Below the pieces are notes generated by a model, which was not told the origin of the DNA, made no database searches, and saw only the letters and a list, made by a program, of their open reading frames with translations. Position numbers and translations under genes: made by a program. Positions 5,632-58,926 of a stretch of DNA of 64,000 nucleotides are shown piece by piece. Location: positions 1-64,000 of the IMG/VR virus record IMGVR_UViG_3300025117_000005. One strand, given 5' to 3'. Position 1 is the stretch's first letter. The number at the start of each line of letters is the position of its first letter. The stretch is from a virus.

Positions 5632-6375
5632 CTAGTTTTGCTTTCTGACCGTCCAAAAATCATCAGACAGGTTTCTATCCTTGATATATCCAAAGGGTAG
5701 GTATCCGTACCCGTCATCTCCCCATTTGCGCCCCCACGAATTCCGGATAATCAAACGCTCCTTCTCTGTGTACCCCACACCTACTATCGCGTGGCCCCCC
5801 TCCAGTGAATCGGTCTTCTTCGGCATAGGGATCTGTCCCGTCTTGCCGACCTTATCCGTCATCATGGATGAGTACACGGAAAACCCGAACATGAAGGCAA
5901 AACCATCCGCCAAACAGCCAAGAACATCATCCAGCGTGTTCAGCCTCTGGTATGCAGTGATCTTATGGTCCGAAGCGTCCTGGAAGAAAGATTGTGGAGG
6001 CTTCTCAAAAAACTTATCCGTCACGTAAGGCCATTTTGATTCATTTCCGAGCCCAAACTTCGCCATGGCCTTCACGGTATTTCGCAATGTCGCTCCAGAG
6101 TCAAACGGAACGGTGCCCTCCAGGCTGCGCGTCATCCAGTACAGCGCCAGCCGGCTTTTATCCTCATAGGGAGCCTTCATCTTATCCCCGACGAATTCAT
6201 ACACGCCAACCCCTGCCTGTGCGGTACAGGAGCCAATATTCCCTTGATCCTCTATCGGGGAACAAATCGCCCGCAAGTCCATACTTTTCGGAATCTCTCT
6301 CTTTGGGTGGACCCTCTTGAACTGAAAATCCCTGAAATCCAACGGGTCCGGCAACCATCCGAACGATCTCTTCAT
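5632..6375 (-). CDS. Papain-like (C1A) cysteine peptidase
   Basis: 247 residues with the complete papain catalytic set: oxyanion-hole Gln44 and nucleophile Cys50 in DQGNIGSC, His195 in GGHAIVGVGY, and Asn212 in IRNSWG. The RNSWG...WGDDGYGYL run is diagnostic of C1A enzymes. There is no signal peptide and only about 30 residues before the mature domain, so no classical inhibitory propeptide. It starts by ATGA overlap with the phosphoesterase gene and lies in the lysis and host-interaction block. The family is common in cells and uncommon in phages. Possible roles are virion protein processing, degrading a host surface protein, or cutting peptide cross-links; the sequence does not decide. Confidence 0.85.
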   Translation of the reverse strand: MKRSFGWLPDPLDFRDFQFKRVHPKREIPKSMDLRAICSPIEDQGNIGSCTAQAGVGVYEFVGDKMKAPYEDKSRLALYWMTRSLEGTVPFDSGATLRNTVKAMAKFGLGNESKWPYVTDKFFEKPPQSFFQDASDHKITAYQRLNTLDDVLGCLADGFAFMFGFSVYSSMMTDKVGKTGQIPMPKKTDSLEGGHAIVGVGYTEKERLIIRNSWGRKWGDDGYGYLPFGYIKDRNLSDDFWTVRKQN

Positions 6376-7098: not shown

Positions 7099-7731
7099 TT
7101 AAAGAAATTTCAGGTACGCCGCCATGAAGTCAGGGAACAGGAGTTTGGCGATATCTATGGCCGACTGGACCCCCATCCGGACCTCAGCCCCTAGGACATA
7201 GAAAGCGTTATACTCCTCGTCACTCCAATATTTCGATCCGTCCGGCTTCTGTGCCTTGTTCTCACACAGCTCCCGGAGCTCAATCAATCCCAGTACGGCG
7301 GCGGGGCTTTTGATAATGGGCCTCAGTTCGGAAGTCGTGTTGATCGGAAACTTCACCTTGTCCATAAGACCAAGACCATCTAAGAACCCAATATTCCCAG
7401 AACACTGGGTGAGGGCCTCTATGGCAAGTTTCTTATTCGCCACGTAATTCTCGTGACTCACTTTGACGAGAGGCCCGGAAACCGCAGCACATCCCATCCC
7501 CCCTGATAATGCAACCATTAGGGCGAAGCCCACAATCATTCTTAAGGCTGGCCCCGGAGGTGGTGTCTGTTTCAGCCAGGCCAGGAATACGCCAAGTGCC
7601 GGGAGGATACAGATAATCACAATCTGTTTGGTCGTCACGTTATCAGGTAGGGTGCCCCATGCAGCCAGCCCCGTCATCACCGCCGTAAGAATCGCTATAC
7701 ACGCTCCGTAAATCCAATTTCTCCAGTTCAT
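7099..7731 (-). CDS. Holin-like membrane protein with a lipoprotein-like C-terminal part
   Basis: 210 residues. Residues 1-64 hold two hydrophobic segments (about 9-28 and 36-54) and end in AWLKQTPPPG, resembling small phage holin-like proteins that end in LKQSPLPP. A third hydrophobic stretch (66-82, MIVGFALMVALSGGMGC) looks like the start of a lipoprotein, though its lipobox is poor. A soluble region of about 125 residues follows. This suggests a fusion of a holin-like head to a periplasmic domain, or an internal start at Met66, although no good Shine-Dalgarno precedes that Met. It is coupled by ATGA to the NlpC/P60-like gene and lies just downstream of the lysin, which fits a lysis role. 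Holin function is inferred. Confidence 0.55.
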   Translation of the reverse strand: MNWRNWIYGACIAILTAVMTGLAAWGTLPDNVTTKQIVIICILPALGVFLAWLKQTPPPGPALRMIVGFALMVALSGGMGCAAVSGPLVKVSHENYVANKKLAIEALTQCSGNIGFLDGLGLMDKVKFPINTTSELRPIIKSPAAVLGLIELRELCENKAQKPDGSKYWSDEEYNAFYVLGAEVRMGVQSAIDIAKLLFPDFMAAYLKFL

Positions 7732-8189
7732 AAAATCTCCTTTCGGACAAGTTCGAGCAATGGTGATATCCAGATATGCCCTGGATTAATGAAAGCCTTA
7801 TCTACCCGGCGTTGCAACATAACCCCGTGCTGTTGGTATGCCCAAAAAACTAACTCAGAGCAAAACCACCGGTCCTCGTCGTTTAGATCCTTATTGACCA
7901 AGAAACTCCCCAACCCGGCGTAGTCGTACCCCTTGCCCACTTGGGTCAGGGCGCTATCGACTATAGCCAGCCTTTGGACATCCGTTAAGGATGAGCACGT
8001 CAAGATGGCGTACTTCTTCAGTTCGTTCGCTCTCACATCCCTGCGTGTCACCCCGTCCGCATCGGCGCTGATGACTTGGGGCCAGCTTACGATCAAAGCC
8101 ACGTGCGACCATGGCGACCACGTTCTAAACTTGATCGCCTCTGAAACCACGTCGCTGGCAGTAGTGAAGAAGATGTCTGCCGGTTTCAT
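7728..8189 (-). CDS. NlpC/P60-superfamily hydrolase (YiiX/DUF830-like)
   Basis: 153 residues from the ATG at 8189 (MKPADIFFTT), which overlaps the lysin stop as ATGA. The arrangement is that of circularly permuted papain-like enzymes: a His in SPWSHVALIV near residue 30 and the Cys later in WFCSELVFWAYQ. No signal peptide. The family includes cell-wall peptidases and lipid or amide hydrolases. Its place directly after the endolysin suggests a second envelope-degrading activity, but the substrate is unknown. Confidence 0.75.
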   Translation of the reverse strand: MKPADIFFTTASDVVSEAIKFRTWSPWSHVALIVSWPQVISADADGVTRRDVRANELKKYAILTCSSLTDVQRLAIVDSALTQVGKGYDYAGLGSFLVNKDLNDEDRWFCSELVFWAYQQHGVMLQRRVDKAFINPGHIWISPLLELVRKEIL

Positions 8190-8725
8190 ACGTAATATTC
8201 TCCTATCCTCCTGGTCCACCCACGGGCAAATCTCAGTAGGTTGGCAGGATCTGCATACCTGAGCTCTACGTACCGCACAAACTGGAAACCGTTCAAGCAT
8301 ACGTGAAGGGCGCGGCGATCTTTCCCGCACCAGAAGTTTAGGGCTTCGAGCGTGATCGGTCCCATGATACCGTCAACGGCCATGATGCTCCCGAGGTAAT
8401 CCAGGGATCTCTGACAGATTTGGACGGCCAGCCTGCGCCCCATGTTGACGGCCGTGTCGAAGATTTCCATCTGGATCCAGCCATTGATGATCTCATCCAG
8501 CCTCAGCGGGTTCCAATAGTCCCGTAGATAAATCTGCATGGCTTCAGGCAAGGTCAGGTCCTGAATATCCAGAGCCGCATACTGAGCCGCGCTGATTCCG
8601 TACTTGGTGCCCTTCAGGATGCCTACACCGACCTGCCCCCCGGTCCAGTTCCCCTTATCATGGGGGTCATCGGTGAATTCACCCTCAAGCCCTACGGTGT
8701 GCTGAAAAGCCAGTTCAAAACTCAT
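8186..8725 (-). CDS. Endolysin, glycoside hydrolase family 108
   Basis: 179 residues, normal for GH108 (DUF847) muramidases. The N-terminal domain has the family signature EGEFTDDPHDKGNWTGG, in which Glu14 of the EGxF motif is the expected catalytic residue. The second half (about 85-175, with VDGIMGPITLEALNF) matches the peptidoglycan-binding domain that accompanies GH108. No signal peptide, so release needs a holin; the candidate is at 7099-7731. The gene is coupled by ATGA to its neighbours on both sides. Confidence 0.9.
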   Translation of the reverse strand: MSFELAFQHTVGLEGEFTDDPHDKGNWTGGQVGVGILKGTKYGISAAQYAALDIQDLTLPEAMQIYLRDYWNPLRLDEIINGWIQMEIFDTAVNMGRRLAVQICQRSLDYLGSIMAVDGIMGPITLEALNFWCGKDRRALHVCLNGFQFVRYVELRYADPANLLRFARGWTRRIGEYYV

Positions 8726-8920: not shown

Positions 8921-9223
8921 CTATTCTGGCGGTTCGTCTTGCAGGTATGGTAACTTCAACGCCCACATGATTCGATCAATCTTCTTGTTGAGCGCCCTAA
9001 ACTCCTTCACACCTTCTTTCAGTCCCAACTTGATCTCTTCTCTGTCACGCACAGACGTTTCCTCAATTTGTTCACACATAGTTTTGTCCTGCTTGCCCTC
9101 CTTGAGGGCGTCGATTTCAGCAAAAACGGTTCGACGAATAAAAAAGGCCAAAATAGTGCCGATCAAAGTTACAAAGCCGGCGATATATCCGATGATCTCA
9201 CCCACACCCAAAGTCACTTCCAC
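8921..9223 (-). CDS. Single-pass membrane protein with coiled coil (holin or spanin candidate)
   Basis: 100 residues: one transmembrane segment at about 9-29, a basic RR pair, then a long charged helix that should form a coiled coil (about 32-90). This shape occurs in XhlA-like holin partners and in inner-membrane spanins. It opens the lysis cluster, directly after the terminator at 9246. Which role it plays cannot be settled from sequence. Confidence 0.6.
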   Translation of the reverse strand: MEVTLGVGEIIGYIAGFVTLIGTILAFFIRRTVFAEIDALKEGKQDKTMCEQIEETSVRDREEIKLGLKEGVKEFRALNKKIDRIMWALKLPYLQDEPPE

Positions 9224-9307: not shown

Positions 9308-10345
9308 CTACTCCGGTCTTAGGTCATCCCACAGAACGAAGTAGTGATACGTGTCTCCACTGTTATTGACCTCTGCCCCATTGCCCACCGTGAATGTTCC
9401 ATCCCCAAAGGCCGTTATTCCGTCCGTGATGTACCCTGTCGAAGTACTCCAGTCCAGACAATTCCCTGCCCCCATGCTGGCGGTCCTGTACCTTGGCCTC
9501 CTACCTGAGCCACCAACGCCCTGGATAAATACCAAAGCGGGTGTGCCCTTCCTGTCAAGGGTGATCGTCTTCGATGATTGCCCGTCCCCCGTGTACGACC
9601 CGAAATGCGCCTTCGGGAAGAACCGGATCAGCATGTTCCCGTCGTTGCCAACGAATTCCGAGGGGCCGGGTTCGGCAAAGACGTAATCGATCCAGAAGGA
9701 TTTACTCACTCCTGAAGAGTTTGTGGCCTGTACGGAAAAAATCGTCACCCCATCCCTTGACCCGCTGGCAATTCCGGAAATGTCCCAAGTTTGCTTAACC
9801 CAGGTATTGGCGGGAGGAGGCGTGGTAACGGTATGGGACTGTTCGTTATACGCCGATTCCCCAAAGCGGAGATAGAACCAGATCATTGAGGAATTATCCG
9901 AACGGCGTAGTGATGCTTTAAGTGATTCGTACGCGCTAAGATCCCATGCCCCGCTTGATTTTGTGGCCTTGACTATAGCCGTCACCCCACCTGGTACAGT
10001 GACTTTAATTGATCCAGTTCCTTCATTCATAATGGAAGGATCCAGAGCAATAGTTACTCCCGCTCCGGAATGAATACTCCACACTGCTGTTCCGTCATCA
10101 ATGGCGTCGCAGTGATGAAGATCAAGAGGCTCCCCCATCACAAACTTCGCCTCTCCAACCGCAGGTAGGCCCGCATCCATCGGAAAATCTATGCCACCCT
10201 CGATTCTTGCCAGCACCATATTCCATGCCTCCTCTAAGGCCGCAACACGTTGTTCTAACCGGTGCACTTGCTTCTTTGCGCTTTCCCCAAAAGCAGGGAA
10301 CGCTATCACCAGAACCAGCAGTAACGAAATGAGAATCTTTTTCAT
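9308..10345 (-). CDS. Exported coiled-coil and fibre-tip-like protein
   Basis: 345 residues. Residues 1-20 are a classic signal peptide (KKILISLLLVLVIAFPAFG). A short coiled coil follows (about 25-48, VHRLEQRVAALEEAW), long enough to trimerise. The middle (about 75-225) looks like a beta-sandwich carbohydrate-binding domain (GTGSIKVTVPGG, WDLSAYESLKASLRR, WIDYVFAEPG). The end (about 240-345) resembles the C-terminal knob of phage tail fibres (FTVGNGAEVNNSGDTYHYFVLW). It has its own sigma70-type promoter at 10378-10406 and its own terminator at 9246-9281, the layout of a moron expressed separately from the late operon. Start supported by AAAGGAGGGAGATT. It may be a fibre, or a surface protein made by lysogens. 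Confidence 0.75.
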   Translation of the reverse strand: MKKILISLLLVLVIAFPAFGESAKKQVHRLEQRVAALEEAWNMVLARIEGGIDFPMDAGLPAVGEAKFVMGEPLDLHHCDAIDDGTAVWSIHSGAGVTIALDPSIMNEGTGSIKVTVPGGVTAIVKATKSSGAWDLSAYESLKASLRRSDNSSMIWFYLRFGESAYNEQSHTVTTPPPANTWVKQTWDISGIASGSRDGVTIFSVQATNSSGVSKSFWIDYVFAEPGPSEFVGNDGNMLIRFFPKAHFGSYTGDGQSSKTITLDRKGTPALVFIQGVGGSGRRPRYRTASMGAGNCLDWSTSTGYITDGITAFGDGTFTVGNGAEVNNSGDTYHYFVLWDDLRPE

Positions 10346-35607: not shown

Positions 35608-37521
35608 CTATGTTCGTCCCTTCATGCGGATGCCGGAAATCTGCCCGGAGGCGACTACAATAATCGGGCTAAGATAATCAACCCGGTGATACAAGGACGC
35701 GGCTTGAAATGCGAACTTGCCAGACATTCCGAAGTGATCGCCCCCGCTCCCAACGCAGTAGTAATGCGTCATGTATTTCTTCTTCCCGTGCGCCCCAATT
35801 TTTTCTTCTATGGTCTTCTTGATGCTTATGTGCTGTTGGATGACCTGCTCCATCTCTTCCTCATGCTCTGGAATTTCCAAGCCACCCGAATTAAGAAAAT
35901 TAAAATACGCATCCAATGCACCCGCCTTGTCCTCCACAATCTTCGCCACCCATATCTCTTCACCGGACGGCTCCTTTTCTTTGTCGGTCCACTTAAAACC
36001 GAGCATAGGATCATCAAAGTTTGCGATAGTGGAATGGTTTACCCACACTTTCGGGGATGGCTTCAGGTAATCGAGTTGAAAATTGTGTGCATCATTTCCG
36101 GAGGGTTCGGCATCCACCACACACAGGACCACATGAAATTTCTCCATTAACTCGTTGAGCCGCCCGGGTTGCGGGTACATCTTGCCGTCATTACCTGTCG
36201 TAAATGTCTTGAACGCTTCGCTGTCCGGTGAAAACTCGGCCCATACTACTTGCCACTGACCAATAGGGAATTGCTCTGATTTCGTGTGTGGCCGTAACCG
36301 CCACACAGTCGCGTAGGCCCCCTGGTCTACCCCCATCACATGCACATATCCGGATTCATACCCAAACTGAAGACCTGGGGTTTTAGCTGCCTCAAACACG
36401 TCTATCGTCAAACCACTTTTCTTGTCTTCGTAAGGAATGCCCAGGGTATGATGGTGAAAATACAAAACTGAATTCTGGTCCCGTTCCCGCATTACTTCAT
36501 GAACAGAAGAGGAATACCCCCAAGGAATACGATAGCCACGCACCCCCTCACCGTAGCGGGTTACCGTGTCGTAATATTCCTTCCTCATCGGAACCCACTC
36601 GCAACGATGAATCTTCAGGGGATCAGATGGACGCCACTTGCCGATTTCCGAAAAGTCAAGTTCTTCGTGACAATGAAGGCACATATAAAAAGGCTCGCCC
36701 TTCCTGGTATGCCCTTTTTCATAGTAATTCCCCATTGACTCGGGATAACTCATCTCCTGCCAGTGGTTGCAGCGGCTACACTGGATCATAAATACGTGTT
36801 GATCGCTCAGTTCATCGTAATCTTTCGAGACCCCCCAATCGGACTGCTCCGGTGTAGAAAACTTCAGGAACATGCCCCGCTGTGTCTTGGACCGAAAGAA
36901 TGGGGATGCCTTTAACCGTGATTCTGCCTGCTCTGCGACCTGCCGATCCTCTGTACGGTCCCATTCATCACCGACGACGATATCACCCGGCACCGTGGTG
37001 ACGGCCTTTATGTTTTGGCGACCACCAATATACAGGCCGGCACGGCCAAACTTCTTTAACTGGATTTGATCGATCTCCCCATCTTCCAATAAGTCTTCGA
37101 GGAACTTGTTTTCCCGAATAAGATCTCCCAGCCTGTCCGACGAAAACTGGCTGGCCTTGGTGCTGGTTTCCAGGGTGTAGATAACGGTAGGGAACCTCGA
37201 CATTTCTATACCCTGATCTGATTTATAGTAGTACGGCATTAAGGCGTACTGCTCCAAGAACAGGATAATCTTGAGTAGCCTCACAAACGTATCGCCCACC
37301 TGAGACCGTTTCGTATCTACCTGGCGGGGGTGATCGTCGTTCAGAAGTTGAATCTGCCACTCGAACCCAGCAAACTGGATAGGATTTCCCTGATAGCGAT
37401 AATACCTCACGGCCCGTTCAGCGTAGGTCAGCGAGAAGTCCCTTTGTAGGGCGTCGATATGGGATCTGAAGACGCGCAAGACGTGATCTATGGATTTTGG
37501 TACTTCAGATTGAAACGGCAT
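35608..37521 (-). CDS. terL: Terminase large subunit (GpA-like)
   Basis: 637 residues, close to lambda gpA. ATPase: adenine/Walker-A-like segment DTKRSQVGDT (69-78) and Walker B IVVGDEWD (181-188). A zinc-finger pair (CSRC ... CLHC, about 248-284) follows, as in the GpA family. Nuclease domain: MGVDQG with the first Asp, LCVVDAEPSG with the second, and a C-terminal GMSGKFAFQAASL. It should drive DNA packaging and cut concatemers. Family membership suggests cos-type ends, though pac-type members exist. Coupled by TAATG to the gene before it, but separated from terS by a 2-kb cargo. Confidence 0.9.
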   Translation of the reverse strand: MPFQSEVPKSIDHVLRVFRSHIDALQRDFSLTYAERAVRYYRYQGNPIQFAGFEWQIQLLNDDHPRQVDTKRSQVGDTFVRLLKIILFLEQYALMPYYYKSDQGIEMSRFPTVIYTLETSTKASQFSSDRLGDLIRENKFLEDLLEDGEIDQIQLKKFGRAGLYIGGRQNIKAVTTVPGDIVVGDEWDRTEDRQVAEQAESRLKASPFFRSKTQRGMFLKFSTPEQSDWGVSKDYDELSDQHVFMIQCSRCNHWQEMSYPESMGNYYEKGHTRKGEPFYMCLHCHEELDFSEIGKWRPSDPLKIHRCEWVPMRKEYYDTVTRYGEGVRGYRIPWGYSSSVHEVMRERDQNSVLYFHHHTLGIPYEDKKSGLTIDVFEAAKTPGLQFGYESGYVHVMGVDQGAYATVWRLRPHTKSEQFPIGQWQVVWAEFSPDSEAFKTFTTGNDGKMYPQPGRLNELMEKFHVVLCVVDAEPSGNDAHNFQLDYLKPSPKVWVNHSTIANFDDPMLGFKWTDKEKEPSGEEIWVAKIVEDKAGALDAYFNFLNSGGLEIPEHEEEMEQVIQQHISIKKTIEEKIGAHGKKKYMTHYYCVGSGGDHFGMSGKFAFQAASLYHRVDYLSPIIVVASGQISGIRMKGRT

Positions 37522-37847
37522 TACTTATCTTCCCTCTTCGTGTACCACTCAGTAGTCTCCGGGGTCATAATCAGTGCAGAATGCTGATACATTCGGTCCA
37601 ACAACAGGAGGGCGAGTTGTCGTGCCCGCCCCATAATCGTGTTCGCATCCTGCGGAAACCTCGGATAGTTGATCAACCCCACAACAAACCCCGTTTCCTC
37701 GCCGCCAGTATAGATGAATTTCGTGGGTTCTACGGTGACGCATAGCCCCTCATGGTAGCAACTCTCACGGCATACCTGCTCTGCAACCGCTATAGAACCA
37801 CTCATGTAAATTTTTGCCCAGAAAGTTGTTTCTACTTCGACTCGCAT
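37521..37847 (-). CDS. Conserved-looking phage protein, unknown
   Basis: 108 residues from ATG 37847 (AGGAGG, 5 bp spacing). It contains CRESCYHEGLCVTVEPTKF and FVVGLINYPRFPQD; three Cys lie close together (27-37). The sequence has the look of a single-domain alpha/beta protein. No function known; it lies between the ATP-PPase and terL. Confidence 0.6.
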   Translation of the reverse strand: MRVEVETTFWAKIYMSGSIAVAEQVCRESCYHEGLCVTVEPTKFIYTGGEETGFVVGLINYPRFPQDANTIMGRARQLALLLLDRMYQHSALIMTPETTEWYTKREDK

Positions 37848-37856
37848 CACTTCCTC

Positions 37857-38642
37857 CTAAACAAAACAAACACCCGAATTACAGTAAAGACCCGAATCAA
37901 AAAGCGTAGGCTCTTTTGAGAAATCAACCTTGTCCAGTGGGATGCAGGATTTATGGAGCCATGCATAAGGATCGAATTCTTGAATCTCTTTCTCGAAGTC
38001 AATGGCCTTTTGAAATTCATCGGGATAATTTTGTTTCAGTTCGCTCCATTGATCATCTGTCTGGTTTGGACACATCCAACACCGTGACCGAGGAGGAGTC
38101 GGCCAGCCCATTGATTCTACAATCGAAATTGCCTGTTGGCGGGTAAGAGGAAAGTCTTTACACAATGGGAGTCTGACAAGTCCATTTTTACCGTCATCTG
38201 TTACCATTATTCGTTGTGCCCGTCGCCACTCATCCATACTAAATCCGATCCACTTTATGTACTGTTTCCGAGTAATTGAATGTTGACGGCTTAAATATCT
38301 ATCTATCGGCCTGACTTTCCAACGGCCTGAACAAAATCCACCCAACTTCCCGACATTGCCGGTTTGATCAGACCACGCCCCCACAAGAAGCGTTTCCCCC
38401 TCATGCCAGTCCTTCCCATCCGGCCTTCCTTTGTACCAATCGTGCCCTACTTTCTGCACTTGAATCCCCACGCCCAAAAGGGCAGGTTCGACAATGGCAT
38501 CAAGGTATTTCCATGTAGCAGCGCATTCTCGCCCGGTATCTGCAATAACCACAATATCGGGCTTCGGCAATTTTCCTTGGACGATCAGGGCCGCAATCGC
38601 CGTGCTTTGAGTGCCTCCACCGGAAGAGAAAACTTCGATCAT
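37857..38642 (-). CDS. PAPS reductase-like ATP-pyrophosphatase
   Basis: 261 residues from ATG 38642 (ATGA overlap with the previous gene). The PP-loop SSGGGTQST (6-14) and VIADTGRE that follows are hallmarks of the adenine nucleotide alpha-hydrolase superfamily that includes PAPS reductase and sulfur-modification enzymes. A Cys pair, CWMCPNQTDDQW, near 195 and a terminal CNSGVCFV may bind metal or take part in redox or sulfur chemistry. Phage members of this group are common and their substrates unknown; base or tRNA sulfur chemistry is a guess. It is the third gene of the cargo between terS and terL. Confidence 0.75.
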   Translation of the reverse strand: MIEVFSSGGGTQSTAIAALIVQGKLPKPDIVVIADTGRECAATWKYLDAIVEPALLGVGIQVQKVGHDWYKGRPDGKDWHEGETLLVGAWSDQTGNVGKLGGFCSGRWKVRPIDRYLSRQHSITRKQYIKWIGFSMDEWRRAQRIMVTDDGKNGLVRLPLCKDFPLTRQQAISIVESMGWPTPPRSRCWMCPNQTDDQWSELKQNYPDEFQKAIDFEKEIQEFDPYAWLHKSCIPLDKVDFSKEPTLFDSGLYCNSGVCFV

Positions 38643-38962
38643 TGCTTTGCCCTCACTATCTTGAACCCCGCACCCTCTGGGAGCCGAATCGTCATATCCC
38701 AATCCAGCGTGTGAATCTTGTCACCCATCTGTATCCGGTCACGCATCAGGAACTTGAGACGAGCAACCCCTGGATCAGACACGTCTAACTCCGTCCCGAT
38801 CATTTTCCGGTCAATAAGGAAGGTTGAAAGCCCTGCACTATCCGTCCCCTTAACCTCCACTGAATAGTTCGCCATGGAGTCAAGGGAACCCTTGCAACCG
38901 CTTCCAATTACGGCGATCAGGATACACAAGCCGATCAGTAAGGTGGCAGCCCTAATCGCCAT
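38639..38962 (-). CDS. Small exported (possibly lipid-anchored) protein
   Basis: 107 residues with an N-terminal signal (AATLLIGLCILIAVIGSGC). The Cys at residue 23 could be lipidated, but the lipobox GSGC is atypical, so a transmembrane anchor is the alternative. The rest is a small beta-rich domain (YSVEVKGTDSAGLSTFLIDRK, IHTLDWDMTIRLPEG). Near-perfect Shine-Dalgarno AAGGAGGTGAAAC. It overlaps the protease gene by 11 bp, so the two are made together; it may be a partner, substrate or inhibitor of that protease. Confidence 0.65.
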   Translation of the reverse strand: MAIRAATLLIGLCILIAVIGSGCKGSLDSMANYSVEVKGTDSAGLSTFLIDRKMIGTELDVSDPGVARLKFLMRDRIQMGDKIHTLDWDMTIRLPEGAGFKIVRAKQ

Positions 38963-39830
38963 GTTTCACCTCCTTCTCTGCATCTTTCTTCTGTGACTTC
39001 AGCCAAGCCTCGTGATCGGGAGCGTTAGGATCGAACAGCATGGCCCACCCGGTATCAGTCAGCCACTTATATATCCGGGATATTGGGATGATATAGTTCA
39101 TATGGTAGACGGCATTGGGTGCCCAGTTCGCCCAGGTCACCGCAATTCGACTTGGTATCCCTATAAACTCCCTGCTATCAGCCAGAAACGCACCCCCGCC
39201 ACTGTTCCCGAACACAGCTGGCGCGTTCAGCATCCAGTAAGGTAAGTTCTCAATTTCGTCATTCAAGGAAGCGATTTGACCACTGGTGGGAAACGGGGAC
39301 CGACCCAACCCCGCACCACAGACGAAGACAGACTGAAATATTCTGAGTTTTTCGACGGCATCCGCAGGTAATAGCTTCACGGTTAGACACCGTTCGTCAC
39401 TCCGTAATTTCAGTATGGCCAGGTCATGCTCTTTGTTCCACTCGACAATATCGGCCTGAATCAAGAGTGTGCCCGTAGAGACACTCATATTCTGGTACTT
39501 GAATATTTCCACCTCAATCGTTGCCCGAGTTTCCTTTTTTATCATCTTCTTCTTCAGGCTGTCCCACTGTTCCTGAATCTGAATGGCACCTTCGATCACG
39601 TGGTGATTCGTCAAGACATAGGTCGCAAAGCATCCCTCAACGCCTGGGACTTTGTTTGAGGCTATCATCACCCCGGACCCAACCCCCCCCGAGGCCCTGA
39701 CCCGTACCGTGGGATAGAGAATCTCTTTGTGTAAATCCTCCACGGAAGATGCGAAGCCAGTCACCGCAAAAGCTATAACGATCGTCATAGCAACGACAAA
39801 CACCGATAATCTGCTACTCAACCCCGTCAT
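38952..39830 (-). CDS. Exported trypsin-like (HtrA-type) serine protease
   Basis: 292 residues. A signal peptide (1-28, FVVAMTIVIAFAVTGFAS) directs it out of the cytoplasm. The triad is complete: His77 in TNHHVIEG, Asp136 in EHDLAILKL and Ser210 in GNSGGG. An oxyanion-loop-like GAGLGRSPF and a short C-terminal helix follow; there is no PDZ domain. Strong start (AGGAGGTGTCCAG). As a periplasmic protease it could change the host envelope, block superinfection, or process envelope proteins in lysis. An exported protease between terS and terL is unusual. Confidence 0.85.
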   Translation of the reverse strand: MTGLSSRLSVFVVAMTIVIAFAVTGFASSVEDLHKEILYPTVRVRASGGVGSGVMIASNKVPGVEGCFATYVLTNHHVIEGAIQIQEQWDSLKKKMIKKETRATIEVEIFKYQNMSVSTGTLLIQADIVEWNKEHDLAILKLRSDERCLTVKLLPADAVEKLRIFQSVFVCGAGLGRSPFPTSGQIASLNDEIENLPYWMLNAPAVFGNSGGGAFLADSREFIGIPSRIAVTWANWAPNAVYHMNYIIPISRIYKWLTDTGWAMLFDPNAPDHEAWLKSQKKDAEKEVKHGD

Positions 39831-40045
39831 CTGGACACCTCCTGTTGTGCTTTTGAATGCTTCCCCCTTCTTGGTTTACTTGCTTCCAGGTCATCCTTCG
39901 ACACGTAGGGGCAGTGATAATGCCCGTCCACTATTCTAAGGCTTCCGGCATGCTTGCATCCGGTTCTGTCGCAGACAGTTCTTGCCGTTCTGCGCCTTCG
40001 TTCAGAACAATAGAGCCAGATACTTTCTGTACAGGTTTCTTCCAC
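39827..40045 (-). CDS. Small zinc-binding-like protein nested at the end of terS
   Basis: 72 residues from GTG 40045, preceded by the strong site GGAGGGGGAA inside the terS gene, which it overlaps by 115 bp. A Cys/His set (TVCDRTGCKHAG ... DGHYHCPY) could bind zinc. Basic C terminus. The stop overlaps the protease start as ATGA, which supports the reading. Unknown function. Confidence 0.5.
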   Translation of the reverse strand: MEETCTESIWLYCSERRRRTARTVCDRTGCKHAGSLRIVDGHYHCPYVSKDDLEASKPRRGKHSKAQQEVSR

Positions 40046-42905: not shown

Positions 42906-43166
42906 CTAATTCATCCATTCCCTGATTCTCTCAATACAACCATCGTGAATATCCCTTGCGTGCGCGTACCCCAGACACACCAGGGCCTTGCAGTTTTCCA
43001 AATGTTCGTAGTCCATATACGTCACCACGTAGGTTGTATCATCCACGCGCCATAGGTTTGTCTTGCGGTGTCCCAACTCGTAGCCCATCACACAGGTCAG
43101 GTCCCGTAAAGGGTCTGATTCGGATTCTGCAATGGCGTGCTGGAGACTGGAAAGAGTGAGTACCAT
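42906..43166 (-). CDS. Small protein of unknown function
   Basis: 86 residues from ATG 43166, overlapping the previous stop as TGATG. Mixed alpha/beta with one His-rich segment (GYAHARDIHDGC). Not recognised; it lies between ssb and an exported coiled-coil protein. Confidence 0.5.
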   Translation of the reverse strand: MVLTLSSLQHAIAESESDPLRDLTCVMGYELGHRKTNLWRVDDTTYVVTYMDYEHLENCKALVCLGYAHARDIHDGCIERIREWMN

Positions 43167-43567
43167 CACTTTTTCTCCGGCACTGCGGGTTGAGGTTCAG
43201 GTTTGGCCTCAGACTTGGAAGTAGGTTTTCTACTCCCCTTGGCCTTGGCGTCCTTTTCCTCCTTTTCCTGTTTCTCTATGGCCTGTAGCTGTGCCGTCAG
43301 AGCCTTCAACGACTGTCGCGCCGCCGTCAGGTCTTGGCTCCGTTCCCGAAACTGGTTCTGGATCAGCGTCAACTGCATCTCCAGGCGCATCACTTGTTCT
43401 GATGCAAGATCCTTTTTCACTTGAAGGAACTCCTTGGGCGATACAGGTGGCGGTGTCGGAGATGTCGATACGGCGGCCGGGGGCGTCTCCTGCGCCTGCA
43501 CTTCCATAAAACCACCAAAAAGTATGCCTGCCATCACCATTACGATAATCAAAAACGATTTTCTCAT
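43166..43567 (-). CDS. Exported coiled-coil protein
   Basis: 133 residues. A signal peptide (1-25, SFLIIVMVMAGILFGGFMEVQA) is followed by a Pro-rich stretch, a coiled coil at about 45-95 (VMRLEMQLTLIQNQFRERSQDLTAARQSLKALTAQL), and a Lys/Pro-rich tail. AAGGAGGATACAGTT precedes the start. An unexpected periplasmic protein among replication genes. It may be a lysogenic-conversion gene; function unknown. Confidence 0.65.
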   Translation of the reverse strand: MRKSFLIIVMVMAGILFGGFMEVQAQETPPAAVSTSPTPPPVSPKEFLQVKKDLASEQVMRLEMQLTLIQNQFRERSQDLTAARQSLKALTAQLQAIEKQEKEEKDAKAKGSRKPTSKSEAKPEPQPAVPEKK

Positions 43568-57631: not shown

Positions 57632-58573
57632 ATGAACCACGCCATCACCGCCCTACTACTGCAACCCGAGGCCCAGGAGGCCCAGGAGGCCCAGGCCCCA
57701 CAGTCCCATTATGACCGCTTCCAAGGGGTGTTCGAATCGTTCAAGGCATCCTACGTCAACGAGCGCCACCCCACGGAGAACACGTTGCGCAGCCTGAAAA
57801 TGGTTGTCCCCAGGTTTCTCACATTCATCTCGAAAAACCGCCAGGACGTGAACGAGATCGACAAGCAGGACGTGATTGACTATCTCAATAGCTTGAAGGG
57901 GTTAAGGACATCCAGCCGCCTCTTGCACCTGAGAATCATCACCCTCTTTATGAACTGGCTGCACCACATGGGAACCCTTAAGGCGCAGTGGGAAACCGTA
58001 ACTTACAAAGGCCGGGCAGATGTCCCCAGAGCCCCCCAGAAGGAATTAACCAAGGAAGAGGTCGAGAAGATTCTGAATCACATGGACAATCTGAAGGGGA
58101 AGGAGAAGGTCTTGATTCAGCTACTTCTTGCTCGACCACTCCGGATAGGGGAACTGGCAAAGCTGGAGGTCCGGGACGTGGATCTGACCGGGAGAACCAT
58201 CACCATCACTAAGGGGAAGAACAAAAAGACCCGGACCATCTCTATCCCAGAAACGATCTATGACGGACTGAGCCAGTTGATTGAAAGCGCAAAACTCCGA
58301 CACGACCTTGTCTTTGGATTGCAGACTGTTTCGATGATCCATATCGTGAACCGGGTTCTGGAAAAGGCAGGAGTTATCAGGAATGGAAGGTCTACACACT
58401 CACTGAGGCATACGGTGATAATGAGGATGAGACACGAGGCCCATGTTGATGTCGAGGTTGTAGCTGAACTGGCAGGCAACACGCCCGGGACCATCTACCG
58501 GAATTACAATCACGTGCCGGTTGCCGCCCAGCGCCAAGCCGAACAAGATTTAGATAGACTTCTTTCTGTGTGA
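57632..58573 (+). CDS. int: Tyrosine recombinase / integrase
   Basis: 313 residues. Core-binding domain about 27-115 (FESFKASYVNERHPTENTLRSL), catalytic domain about 137-313. Active-site residues by motif: Arg171 (RIGEL), Lys194 (TKGKNKK), His256 and Arg259 (HSLRH), and nucleophile Tyr292 (RNYNHV). The usual LGH His is Asn283 here (AGNTPGTIY), a substitution tolerated in some family members. It may integrate the phage or resolve dimers; no att core was identified nearby. The N terminus has a three-copy GAGGCCCAG DNA repeat (QEAQEAQ). Strong start AAGGAGGAAACCCG. Confidence 0.85.
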   Translation: MNHAITALLLQPEAQEAQEAQAPQSHYDRFQGVFESFKASYVNERHPTENTLRSLKMVVPRFLTFISKNRQDVNEIDKQDVIDYLNSLKGLRTSSRLLHLRIITLFMNWLHHMGTLKAQWETVTYKGRADVPRAPQKELTKEEVEKILNHMDNLKGKEKVLIQLLLARPLRIGELAKLEVRDVDLTGRTITITKGKNKKTRTISIPETIYDGLSQLIESAKLRHDLVFGLQTVSMIHIVNRVLEKAGVIRNGRSTHSLRHTVIMRMRHEAHVDVEVVAELAGNTPGTIYRNYNHVPVAAQRQAEQDLDRLLSV

Positions 58574-58614
58574 ATGCTACCATACCCTTATCTCTTATGA
58601 CAGGAGGTAGGGGT

Positions 58615-58926
58615 ATGAAAAAGATCATTCTGCTTGTAACCTGTCTACTGTTGATTGGCTGCGCCATCACCCCGCGCACGAACCTCACCGACCACCCCGC
58701 CTATCGCAATGCCTCTCAGGATAACCGGGAACGGATTAAAAACCACCGGGTAGGTGTTGGCATGACGATTGAAGAATGCCAGATCTCATGGGATCAAGGC
58801 ATCTTCAGGAAGGTCAGGGCCGATTCTCTGGGCTATGAATTATGGAGAGTAAAAAATGGGGATAGAGACGTGTATTTGCACGTGAGAGGTGGCGTAGTAA
58901 CGTCTTGGTCAGAATACATTCCCTAA
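58615..58926 (+). CDS. Lipoprotein, BamE/SmpA-like
   Basis: 103 residues from ATG 58615 (GGAGGTAGGGGT). A lipoprotein signal (KKIILLVTCLLLIGC) with a good lipobox LIGC puts the lipid on Cys16. The mature part (GVGMTIEECQISWDQGIFRKV, YELWRVKN, VRGGVVTSWSEY) follows the BamE/SmpA pattern of small outer-membrane lipoproteins. Placed between integrase and repressor, the usual site of lysogenic-conversion genes. Its stop overlaps the repressor's stop by convergent transcription. Confidence 0.75.
   Translation: MKKIILLVTCLLLIGCAITPRTNLTDHPAYRNASQDNRERIKNHRVGVGMTIEECQISWDQGIFRKVRADSLGYELWRVKNGDRDVYLHVRGGVVTSWSEYIP

Follow-up and report, generated by a model that had tools for sequence, protein, structure and literature searches.

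What do two genes for predicted exported proteins do in the packaging region of a phage genome? This question is raised by a stretch of 64,000 nucleotides of a bacteriophage known from environmental DNA (positions 1 to 64,000 of the IMG/VR virus record IMGVR_UViG_3300025117_000005; hereafter, the window), in which a gene for a trypsin-like protease and an overlapping gene for a 107-residue protein lie between a gene resembling that of the small terminase subunit (terS) and the gene for the large one (terL). A sequence-only reading had grouped both with a PAPS-reductase-like ATP-PPase and had regarded the two exported products as envelope-directed cargo of the packaging operon. Our comparison of related contigs is best explained if, in a group of uncultured phages, the two-gene cassette is at home in the lysis module. 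We lean, with modest confidence, toward the view that the pair, a protease and a putative lipoprotein, is a mobile periplasmic protease cassette of that module and an accessory of lysis or release.

Most relatives carry the protease beside lysis genes

Scanning IMG/VR with both single-sequence and profile queries yielded nine contigs with the protease besides the window. By our grouping, the ten contigs form six lineages: the window with L002 and L003; L007 with L010 and L011; and L005, L008, L022, and L023, each alone. L003 is a fragment nearly identical to the phage of the window; we counted it among the contigs but gave it no separate lineage. Among these relatives, the protease occupies three genomic positions, namely a lysis neighborhood, a site near portal and scaffold-like genes, and the terS-terL interval. 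The lysis neighborhood accounts for 6 of the 10 contigs and 4 of the 6 lineages, so the view of the protease as cargo of a packaging operon is not supported.

The gene order in L005 is a transmembrane (TM)/coiled-coil gene, the protease, the lipoprotein, a 68-amino acid (aa) open reading frame (ORF), and a GH24 endolysin (PF00959, 1.2e-10). L007, L010, and L011 share a 340-aa exported gene, a TM/coiled-coil gene, the protease, the lipoprotein, a helical ORF, an M15-like endolysin (phrog_465, 2e-4 in L007), and a C1 peptidase, within which the L010 contig ends. In L023, the protease overlaps the stop codon of the gene directly before it, which belongs to an Rz-like spanin family (phrog_739, 1.1e-5), and is followed by a 55-aa ORF, an M15 endolysin (phrog_1768, 1.4e-4), a holin-like gene, and two lipoproteins of other kinds. 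The TM/coiled-coil gene of L005 is homologous to this Rz-like gene (z 15.9). L022 carries a 59-aa two-TM gene, the protease, the helical ORF, and a holin-like gene (phrog_9987, 1.9e-5), after which the contig ends. Because the protease adjoins an Rz-like gene and an endolysin, it probably acts at the end of infection, and its position favors a role at or near lysis.

The TM/coiled-coil ORF of L010 (5106-5321) is shorter (71 aa) than those of L007 and L011 (97 aa each), and its C-terminus is changed as if by a frameshift. This ORF and the helical ORF of L015, a contig with a similar lysis cassette, were left out of the homology tests.

The window keeps a lysis cassette with an empty slot

In L005, L007, and L023, the protease lies directly 3' of the TM/coiled-coil gene, and a homolog of the helical ORF comes after the protease and lipoprotein in L007 and after the protease in L022. 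In L007, the TM/coiled-coil gene and the helical ORF thus flank the pair directly. Both of these genes are present in the window (Table 1), where the gap between them measures 10 bp and holds no trace of the pair. The window keeps a lysis cassette in which the slot for the pair is empty.

In a small, unrooted tree of the protease, the two terS-terL copies were placed beside the L022 copy (support, 82/87), within the lysis-located copies. This placement suggests, and does not prove, that the pair moved from the lysis cassette into the terS-terL interval in the window's lineage.

The protease and lipoprotein genes were exchanged together

L002 (contig 3300037484_000335) is the one relative with the same terS-terL arrangement and the sole contig returned by our TerL profile scan. 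Nucleotide identity between the window and L002 is ~0.9 from ~39775, inside the signal peptide of the protease, to the stop codon of the lipoprotein; no identity was seen past that point until terL, where it is ~0.72. At the amino acid level, the mature protease is 96.6% identical, the lipoprotein 93.4%, and terL 80.7%, with 58.0% for the terS-like gene and 51.4% for the 72-aa gene that follows it. Synonymous divergence (dS) was 0.47 and 0.63 for the pair and 2.5 for terS, with saturation for terL and the dGTP gene; the short 72-aa gene, which overlaps terS, gave 1.2. In addition, third codon positions matched L002 in 273 of 371 codons of the pair versus 404 of 929 codons of terS and terL (Fisher p=2.6e-23, on rounded counts). 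Given this contrast in third positions and dS, the common ancestor of the pair is younger than that of its neighbors. By these comparisons, the protease and the lipoprotein are a real unit that was exchanged recently and independently of the genes around it. Together with the three positions of the protease in relatives, this is in line with the earlier view of the genes as cargo, with a location that varies.

The part of the protease gene that encodes the signal peptide (39750-39830, minus strand) diverges from L002 while the mature part is highly similar, which suggests that the exchanged segment has its boundary within the signal-peptide sequence. The same gene block contains, farther upstream, a gene for a small exported-looking coiled-coil protein (43166-43567, minus strand), with a similar-looking gene in L002 (3501-3857). 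Three proteins of the window's lysis cassette have no match in the L002 record, which is possibly a fragment.

A predicted exported trypsin-like protease of a single domain

The trypsin-like character proposed from the sequence alone was confirmed: the protease scored 49.5 bits against PF13365 Trypsin_2 (cut-off, 27.6), the L022 and L023 proteases were likewise above the cut-off, and H77, D136, and S210 were invariant in 9/9 aligned homologs. Its proposed export is also predicted here, since all seven protease rows examined have a Sec-signal-peptide-like N-terminus according to a simple hydropathy and -3/-1 check, which is not SignalP. A conserved DLHxxILYP-like stretch is found at the mature N-terminus in most aligned rows. 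The ratio of nonsynonymous to synonymous substitution versus L002 (dN/dS, ~0.05) indicates purifying selection on the protease, and the lipoprotein gene is likewise under purifying selection.

The nearest profiles and solved structures of the protease are Do/DegP/DegQ-like. Membership in the Do/HtrA family was rejected, as no PDZ domain was found at E<=1 in Pfam and the score against the NCBIfam Do model was 39.8 bits, with a cut-off of 416.2. No named prohead protease family was matched in Pfam or PHROG. The search for relatives of the window protease by tblastn in 50,697 phage records gave none at E<=0.01, and none was found in scans of GTDB. We excluded MT836729.1, the sole match for the L023 and L008 proteases among phage records, because in our reading its ORF resembles PDZ-type HtrA and its flanking genes look bacterial. 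A defense protease was also discarded: the PADLOC matches to LmuA and RT-Protease_XI (E 1.8e-8 to 7e-6) reflect other trypsin-like domains, and the window protein looks exported. The AlphaFold2 (AF2) model of the protease had a predicted local distance difference test (pLDDT) value of 49 and was not used.

A putative lipoprotein that often accompanies the protease

The 107-residue protein had been described as exported and overlapping the protease. The overlap is confirmed (11 bp), and export is predicted: a signal-like start is followed by Cys23 and then Lys, in keeping with a PROSITE-style lipobox rule (not SignalP). The rule is satisfied by 4/4 lipoprotein homologs checked. As background, 6 of 387 window ORFs and 68 of 2000 letter-shuffled N-termini of the window lipoprotein pass it; among the six ORFs, we judged two to be real genes, the 107-residue one and 58597-58926(+). 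The remainder of the virus record (L006) has one further match, a 55-aa ORF that we did not take for a gene. An outer-membrane location is predicted because the +2 residue is Lys or Gly, not Asp.

In the AF2 model (pLDDT 73 overall), the lipoprotein consists of a helix, a disordered linker, and a three-strand meander with pLDDT ~90. The model had no structural match at E<=0.001 in PDB or BFVD, and the sequence had none in Pfam, PHROG (0 at E<=1), or NCBIfam.

All six contigs returned by the lipoprotein search also carry the protease, and the lipoprotein is found downstream of the protease in 7 of the 10 contigs and 3 of the 6 lineages. A profile search for both proteins in nine records, L010 not being among them, showed no lipoprotein in the L008, L022, L023, and L015 records, the first three of which are fragments. 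The idea that the protease has a dedicated partner is therefore not supported, and we rejected an obligate protease-partner pair because of the three lineages without the lipoprotein.

Gene order of the interval and a separate insert

Single-strand-binding-like, packaging, structural, and lysis genes are among those on the minus strand of the window between ~47 kb and 0.1 kb; the source record as a whole has 76,274 bases. The order on this strand is the helix-turn-helix (HTH) gene, the 72-aa gene, the protease, the lipoprotein, the ATP-PPase, the 109-aa gene, and terL (Table 1). The ORF coordinates bear out that the protease, the 107-residue ORF, and the ATP-PPase lie between the HTH gene and terL and that they are coupled by overlapping stops and starts. 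The three genes named earlier are thus present, but the Cys-rich 72-aa gene and the 109-aa gene had been overlooked. The 5' part of the 72-aa gene overlaps the end of the HTH gene and its TGA overlaps the protease ATG. The protease and lipoprotein genes each have a AGGAGGTG-type ribosome site in front of them. The terS assignment is based on position and a weak HTH match; the family match (phrog_141, E=0.007) covers only 27 residues of the HTH part, with no TerS match in NCBIfam and no match in PDB. The label is therefore a weak, positional one.

Table 1. Coordinates of genes in the terS-terL interval and the lysis region of the window
Feature	Position	Strand	Basis and remarks
TerS-like HTH protein, 297 aa	39931..40824	-	HTH_28 0.0075, phrog_141 TerS 0.007; 57% identical in L002 in a separate comparison; label from position
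Cys-rich gene, 72 aa, GTG start	39827..40045	-	conserved as 77 aa at L002:6608-6841
Trypsin-like serine protease, predicted exported, 292 aa, GNSGGG	38952..39830	-	PF13365, His77/Asp136/Ser210
Putative outer-membrane lipoprotein, 107 aa, Cys23	38639..38962	-	lipobox rule; overlaps protease by 11 bp
ATP-PPase, PAPS-reductase-like, SspD-like	37857..38642	-	phrog_424 1.8e-35; PADLOC SspD 1.1e-15
109-aa gene, phrog_4848	37521..37850	-	phrog_4848 2.5e-35
Terminase large subunit, GpA-type ATPase	35608..37521	-	PF05876 1.1e-15, phrog_675 2.3e-58
Exported-looking protein at head of lysis cassette, 345 aa	9308..10345	-	44% identical to L007 340-aa protein
TM and coiled-coil protein, 100 aa, i-spanin-like topology	8921..9223	-	z 4.7 to L005, z 3.2 to L007
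Helical ORF, 62 aa	8722..8910	-	z 12.2 to L007, 13.2 to L022; 0/500 shuffles as high
Endolysin, GH108 and PG_binding_3	8186..8725	-	PF05838 9.8e-18, phrog_315 5.3e-33
C1 papain-like peptidase	5632..6375	-	PF00112 2.2e-11, phrog_16701; family recurs in L007 lysis region

The start of the ATP-PPase, previously placed at TTG 38702, was corrected to ATG 38642; counted from this codon, the alignment to the PHROG starts at residue 3. The description of this protein as a PAPS-reductase-like enzyme is supported by phrog_424, but its score against Pfam PAPS_reduct (15.2) is under the cut-off of 22.5. We observed a clearer likeness to SspD of the Ssp phosphorothioation/defense system than to the Pfam PAPS reductase, and the ATP-PPase may have a role in DNA modification or counter-defense. 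Genes similar to it are found in 21 phage records and genes similar to the 109-aa gene in 170, many of them from cultured phages.

Comparison of the interval in relatives, as the sequence-only reading had proposed, gave a divided answer: the pair is shared with L002, but the ATP-PPase and the 109-aa gene are absent there, and the edges are clean. Because L002 has otherwise the same arrangement and lacks both genes, they form a separate insert. The ATP-PPase is therefore no member of the cassette, and a single cassette that includes it is ruled out.

Some further features of the lysis regions were noted. Tail-like proteins of 340-359 aa, with a signal-like N-terminus followed by a coiled coil, head the lysis cassettes of the window (9308-10345), L007 (4580-5602), and L015 (5932-7011). 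A 210-aa ORF of the window (7099-7731, minus strand) appears to join a holin to a lipoprotein-like domain, with GMGC after the third hydrophobic stretch; no lipobox-rule start was found inside it, and its counterparts in L007 and L011 are two genes, one holin-like and one for a lipoprotein. The adjacent ORF at 7728-8330 (minus strand) encodes a C92 (YaeF/YiiX-like) permuted papain-fold enzyme.

A proposed role at lysis and the alternatives

If the cassette serves lysis, the protease would be exported by Sec during late expression, lose its signal peptide, and accumulate in the periplasm, where the lipoprotein, in the inner leaflet of the outer membrane, would concentrate or control it. The protease would cut envelope proteins at about the stage at which holin action breaches the inner membrane and the endolysin attacks the wall. 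Candidate substrates are tethers between outer membrane and peptidoglycan, endolysin inhibitors, and receptors that trap progeny on debris, and such cleavage would complete phage release. We infer the periplasmic activity, its timing and substrates, the role of the lipoprotein, and the direction of the move. The notion of exported, envelope-directed cargo is retained as far as predicted export and a mobile pair are concerned, but the protease has a lysis neighborhood, not a packaging one, in 4 of the 6 lineages.

Several points weigh against this interpretation. A neighborhood is not a function, and six lineages are a small sample in which the relatives are mostly short contigs. The pair sits outside the lysis cassette in the window, L002, and L003, and the L008 protease lies between a 106-aa gene behind the portal gene and a scaffold-like gene, without the lipoprotein. 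No endolysin was seen in L022 before the contig ends. L015 has the similar lysis cassette and no protease anywhere in its 43.8-kb record, so lysis in this group does not require the protease; indeed, lysis cassettes do without the protease in place both in L015 and in the window's clade. Homology among the TM/coiled-coil genes is only partly established: the window gene has weak homology to those of L005 and L007 and none to that of L023, and the Rz-like family match is limited to the L023 gene, with a coiled-coil bias possible. In the protease tree, position labels clustered as well in 27 of 200 shuffles, which is not significant, and the key fork of this unrooted tree has a support of 82/87. 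Finally, the window lipobox, GSGC, has an unusual Gly at -3.

A more ambitious version, which we regard as speculative and rather unlikely, is that the pair provides a third outer-membrane route in diderm hosts, in which a secreted trypsin-like protease placed by a lipoprotein would cut the proteins tethering the outer membrane to the wall. Such a cassette would work from any late position, which would explain why it could relocate to the terS-terL interval.

Superinfection exclusion or receptor removal, in which the protease would trim surface receptors or the lipoprotein would jam them from inside in the manner of T5 Llp and FhuA, is in our judgment also unlikely, though it is a serious competitor. 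Small phage lipoproteins are known for such action, and mobility and patchy presence fit such a trait. The protease also stands close behind tail or exported genes in L007/L010/L011 and L022, and in T5, llp comes immediately after the gene for the receptor-binding protein (PMC9586334). However, the 107-residue protein has no sequence similarity to the Cor/Llp families (0 PHROGs at E<=1), promoter-like sites are no commoner than in shuffles, and the protease occurs without the lipoprotein in 3 of the 6 lineages. The weak Cor match in the window belongs to another lipoprotein gene, on the other strand (58570-58926, plus strand; 109 aa from 58597), whose N-terminus weakly matches Cor (phrog_1119, E=0.0099) and an Rz-like family (E=0.081); it is the better candidate for superinfection exclusion. 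Receptor destruction may be a part of the lysis mechanism if it takes place at lysis and a rival to it if it takes place early.

We consider it improbable that the protease is an HtrA-like degradase of periplasmic quality control, which would ease the envelope stress from exported phage proteins and keep the cell alive until lysis. Its nearest profiles and structures are those of Do, DegP, and DegQ, and the window encodes further exported-looking proteins (9308-10345 and 43166-43567). Do proteases handle their substrates through PDZ domains, however, and the window protease has none and scores far below the Do cut-off; its position in lysis cassettes in 4 of the 6 lineages likewise argues against this role. 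We give similarly little credence to a role in lysis timing, with the protease degrading an antiholin or another periplasmic regulator and thereby setting the start of lysis. The T4 antiholin RI is reported as a DegP substrate in PMC8385771, but deletion of degP is reported there to have no effect on T4 lysis inhibition, and no antiholin was identified here. A virion or head-maturation protease that processes capsid or tail proteins is very improbable: the L008 copy lies between portal and scaffold-like genes and the window copy beside terminase genes, but the export-type N-terminus in 7/7 rows, the lysis neighborhood in 4 of the 6 lineages, and the lack of a match to any named prohead protease family in Pfam and PHROG argue against it.

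An accessory of lysis or release thus remains our preferred reading. The pair suggests a little-known helper of cell lysis, and an exported protease with an optional lipoprotein in lysis cassettes is a concrete, testable candidate for an envelope-dissolving accessory. It also illustrates that the local neighborhood alone, here packaging, can mislead on the role of a gene, as relatives place the protease elsewhere.

Comparison with known systems

In full-text searches of an open-licence library, no paper was listed as describing such a protease in a lysis cassette. PMC9671378 concerns a capsid protease and not the exported lysis-cassette kind. In the survey of Kongari et al. 2018, 91 of 677 phages lack spanins, and the word protease is absent from its main text, which also describes a lambda lysogen test for complementing a spanin lysis defect (PMC6139136).

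The place of the protease gene, right after an Rz-like gene, is the one that Rz1 has in many phages. As in Rz/Rz1 systems, a TM/coiled-coil gene (Rz-like in L023) precedes a cassette able to hold an outer-membrane lipoprotein. In contrast to them, the protease gene comes in between (L005 and L007), the lipoprotein is beta-stranded and has no PHROG match, and in the window it (38639) is ~30 kb from the TM/coiled-coil gene (9223). Compared with o-spanins, the 107-residue protein is a small lipoprotein by the lipobox rule and is not paired closely with an i-spanin gene.

With HtrA/Do (DegP, DegQ, and DegS) and other clan PA proteases, the window protease shares the Trypsin_2 domain, the His-Asp-Ser triad, and an exported-type N-terminus; unlike HtrA/Do, it has no PDZ domain and belongs to a set of single-domain proteins of 260-292 aa. 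The ATP-PPase resembles phrog_424 PAPS-reductase-like phage genes and SspD in sequence and differs in being a separate insert in the window. Like T5 Llp and Cor, the window lipoprotein is a small, mobile phage lipoprotein; it differs in having no sequence match to them, in being tied to a protease gene, and in lying on the structural-gene strand. Finally, the pair resembles phage morons in its patchy presence, its exchange as a unit, and its tight packing between conserved genes; its promoter-like sites (2 versus 3.1 expected) and terminator-like sites (4 versus 2.6 expected) do not stand out from chance.

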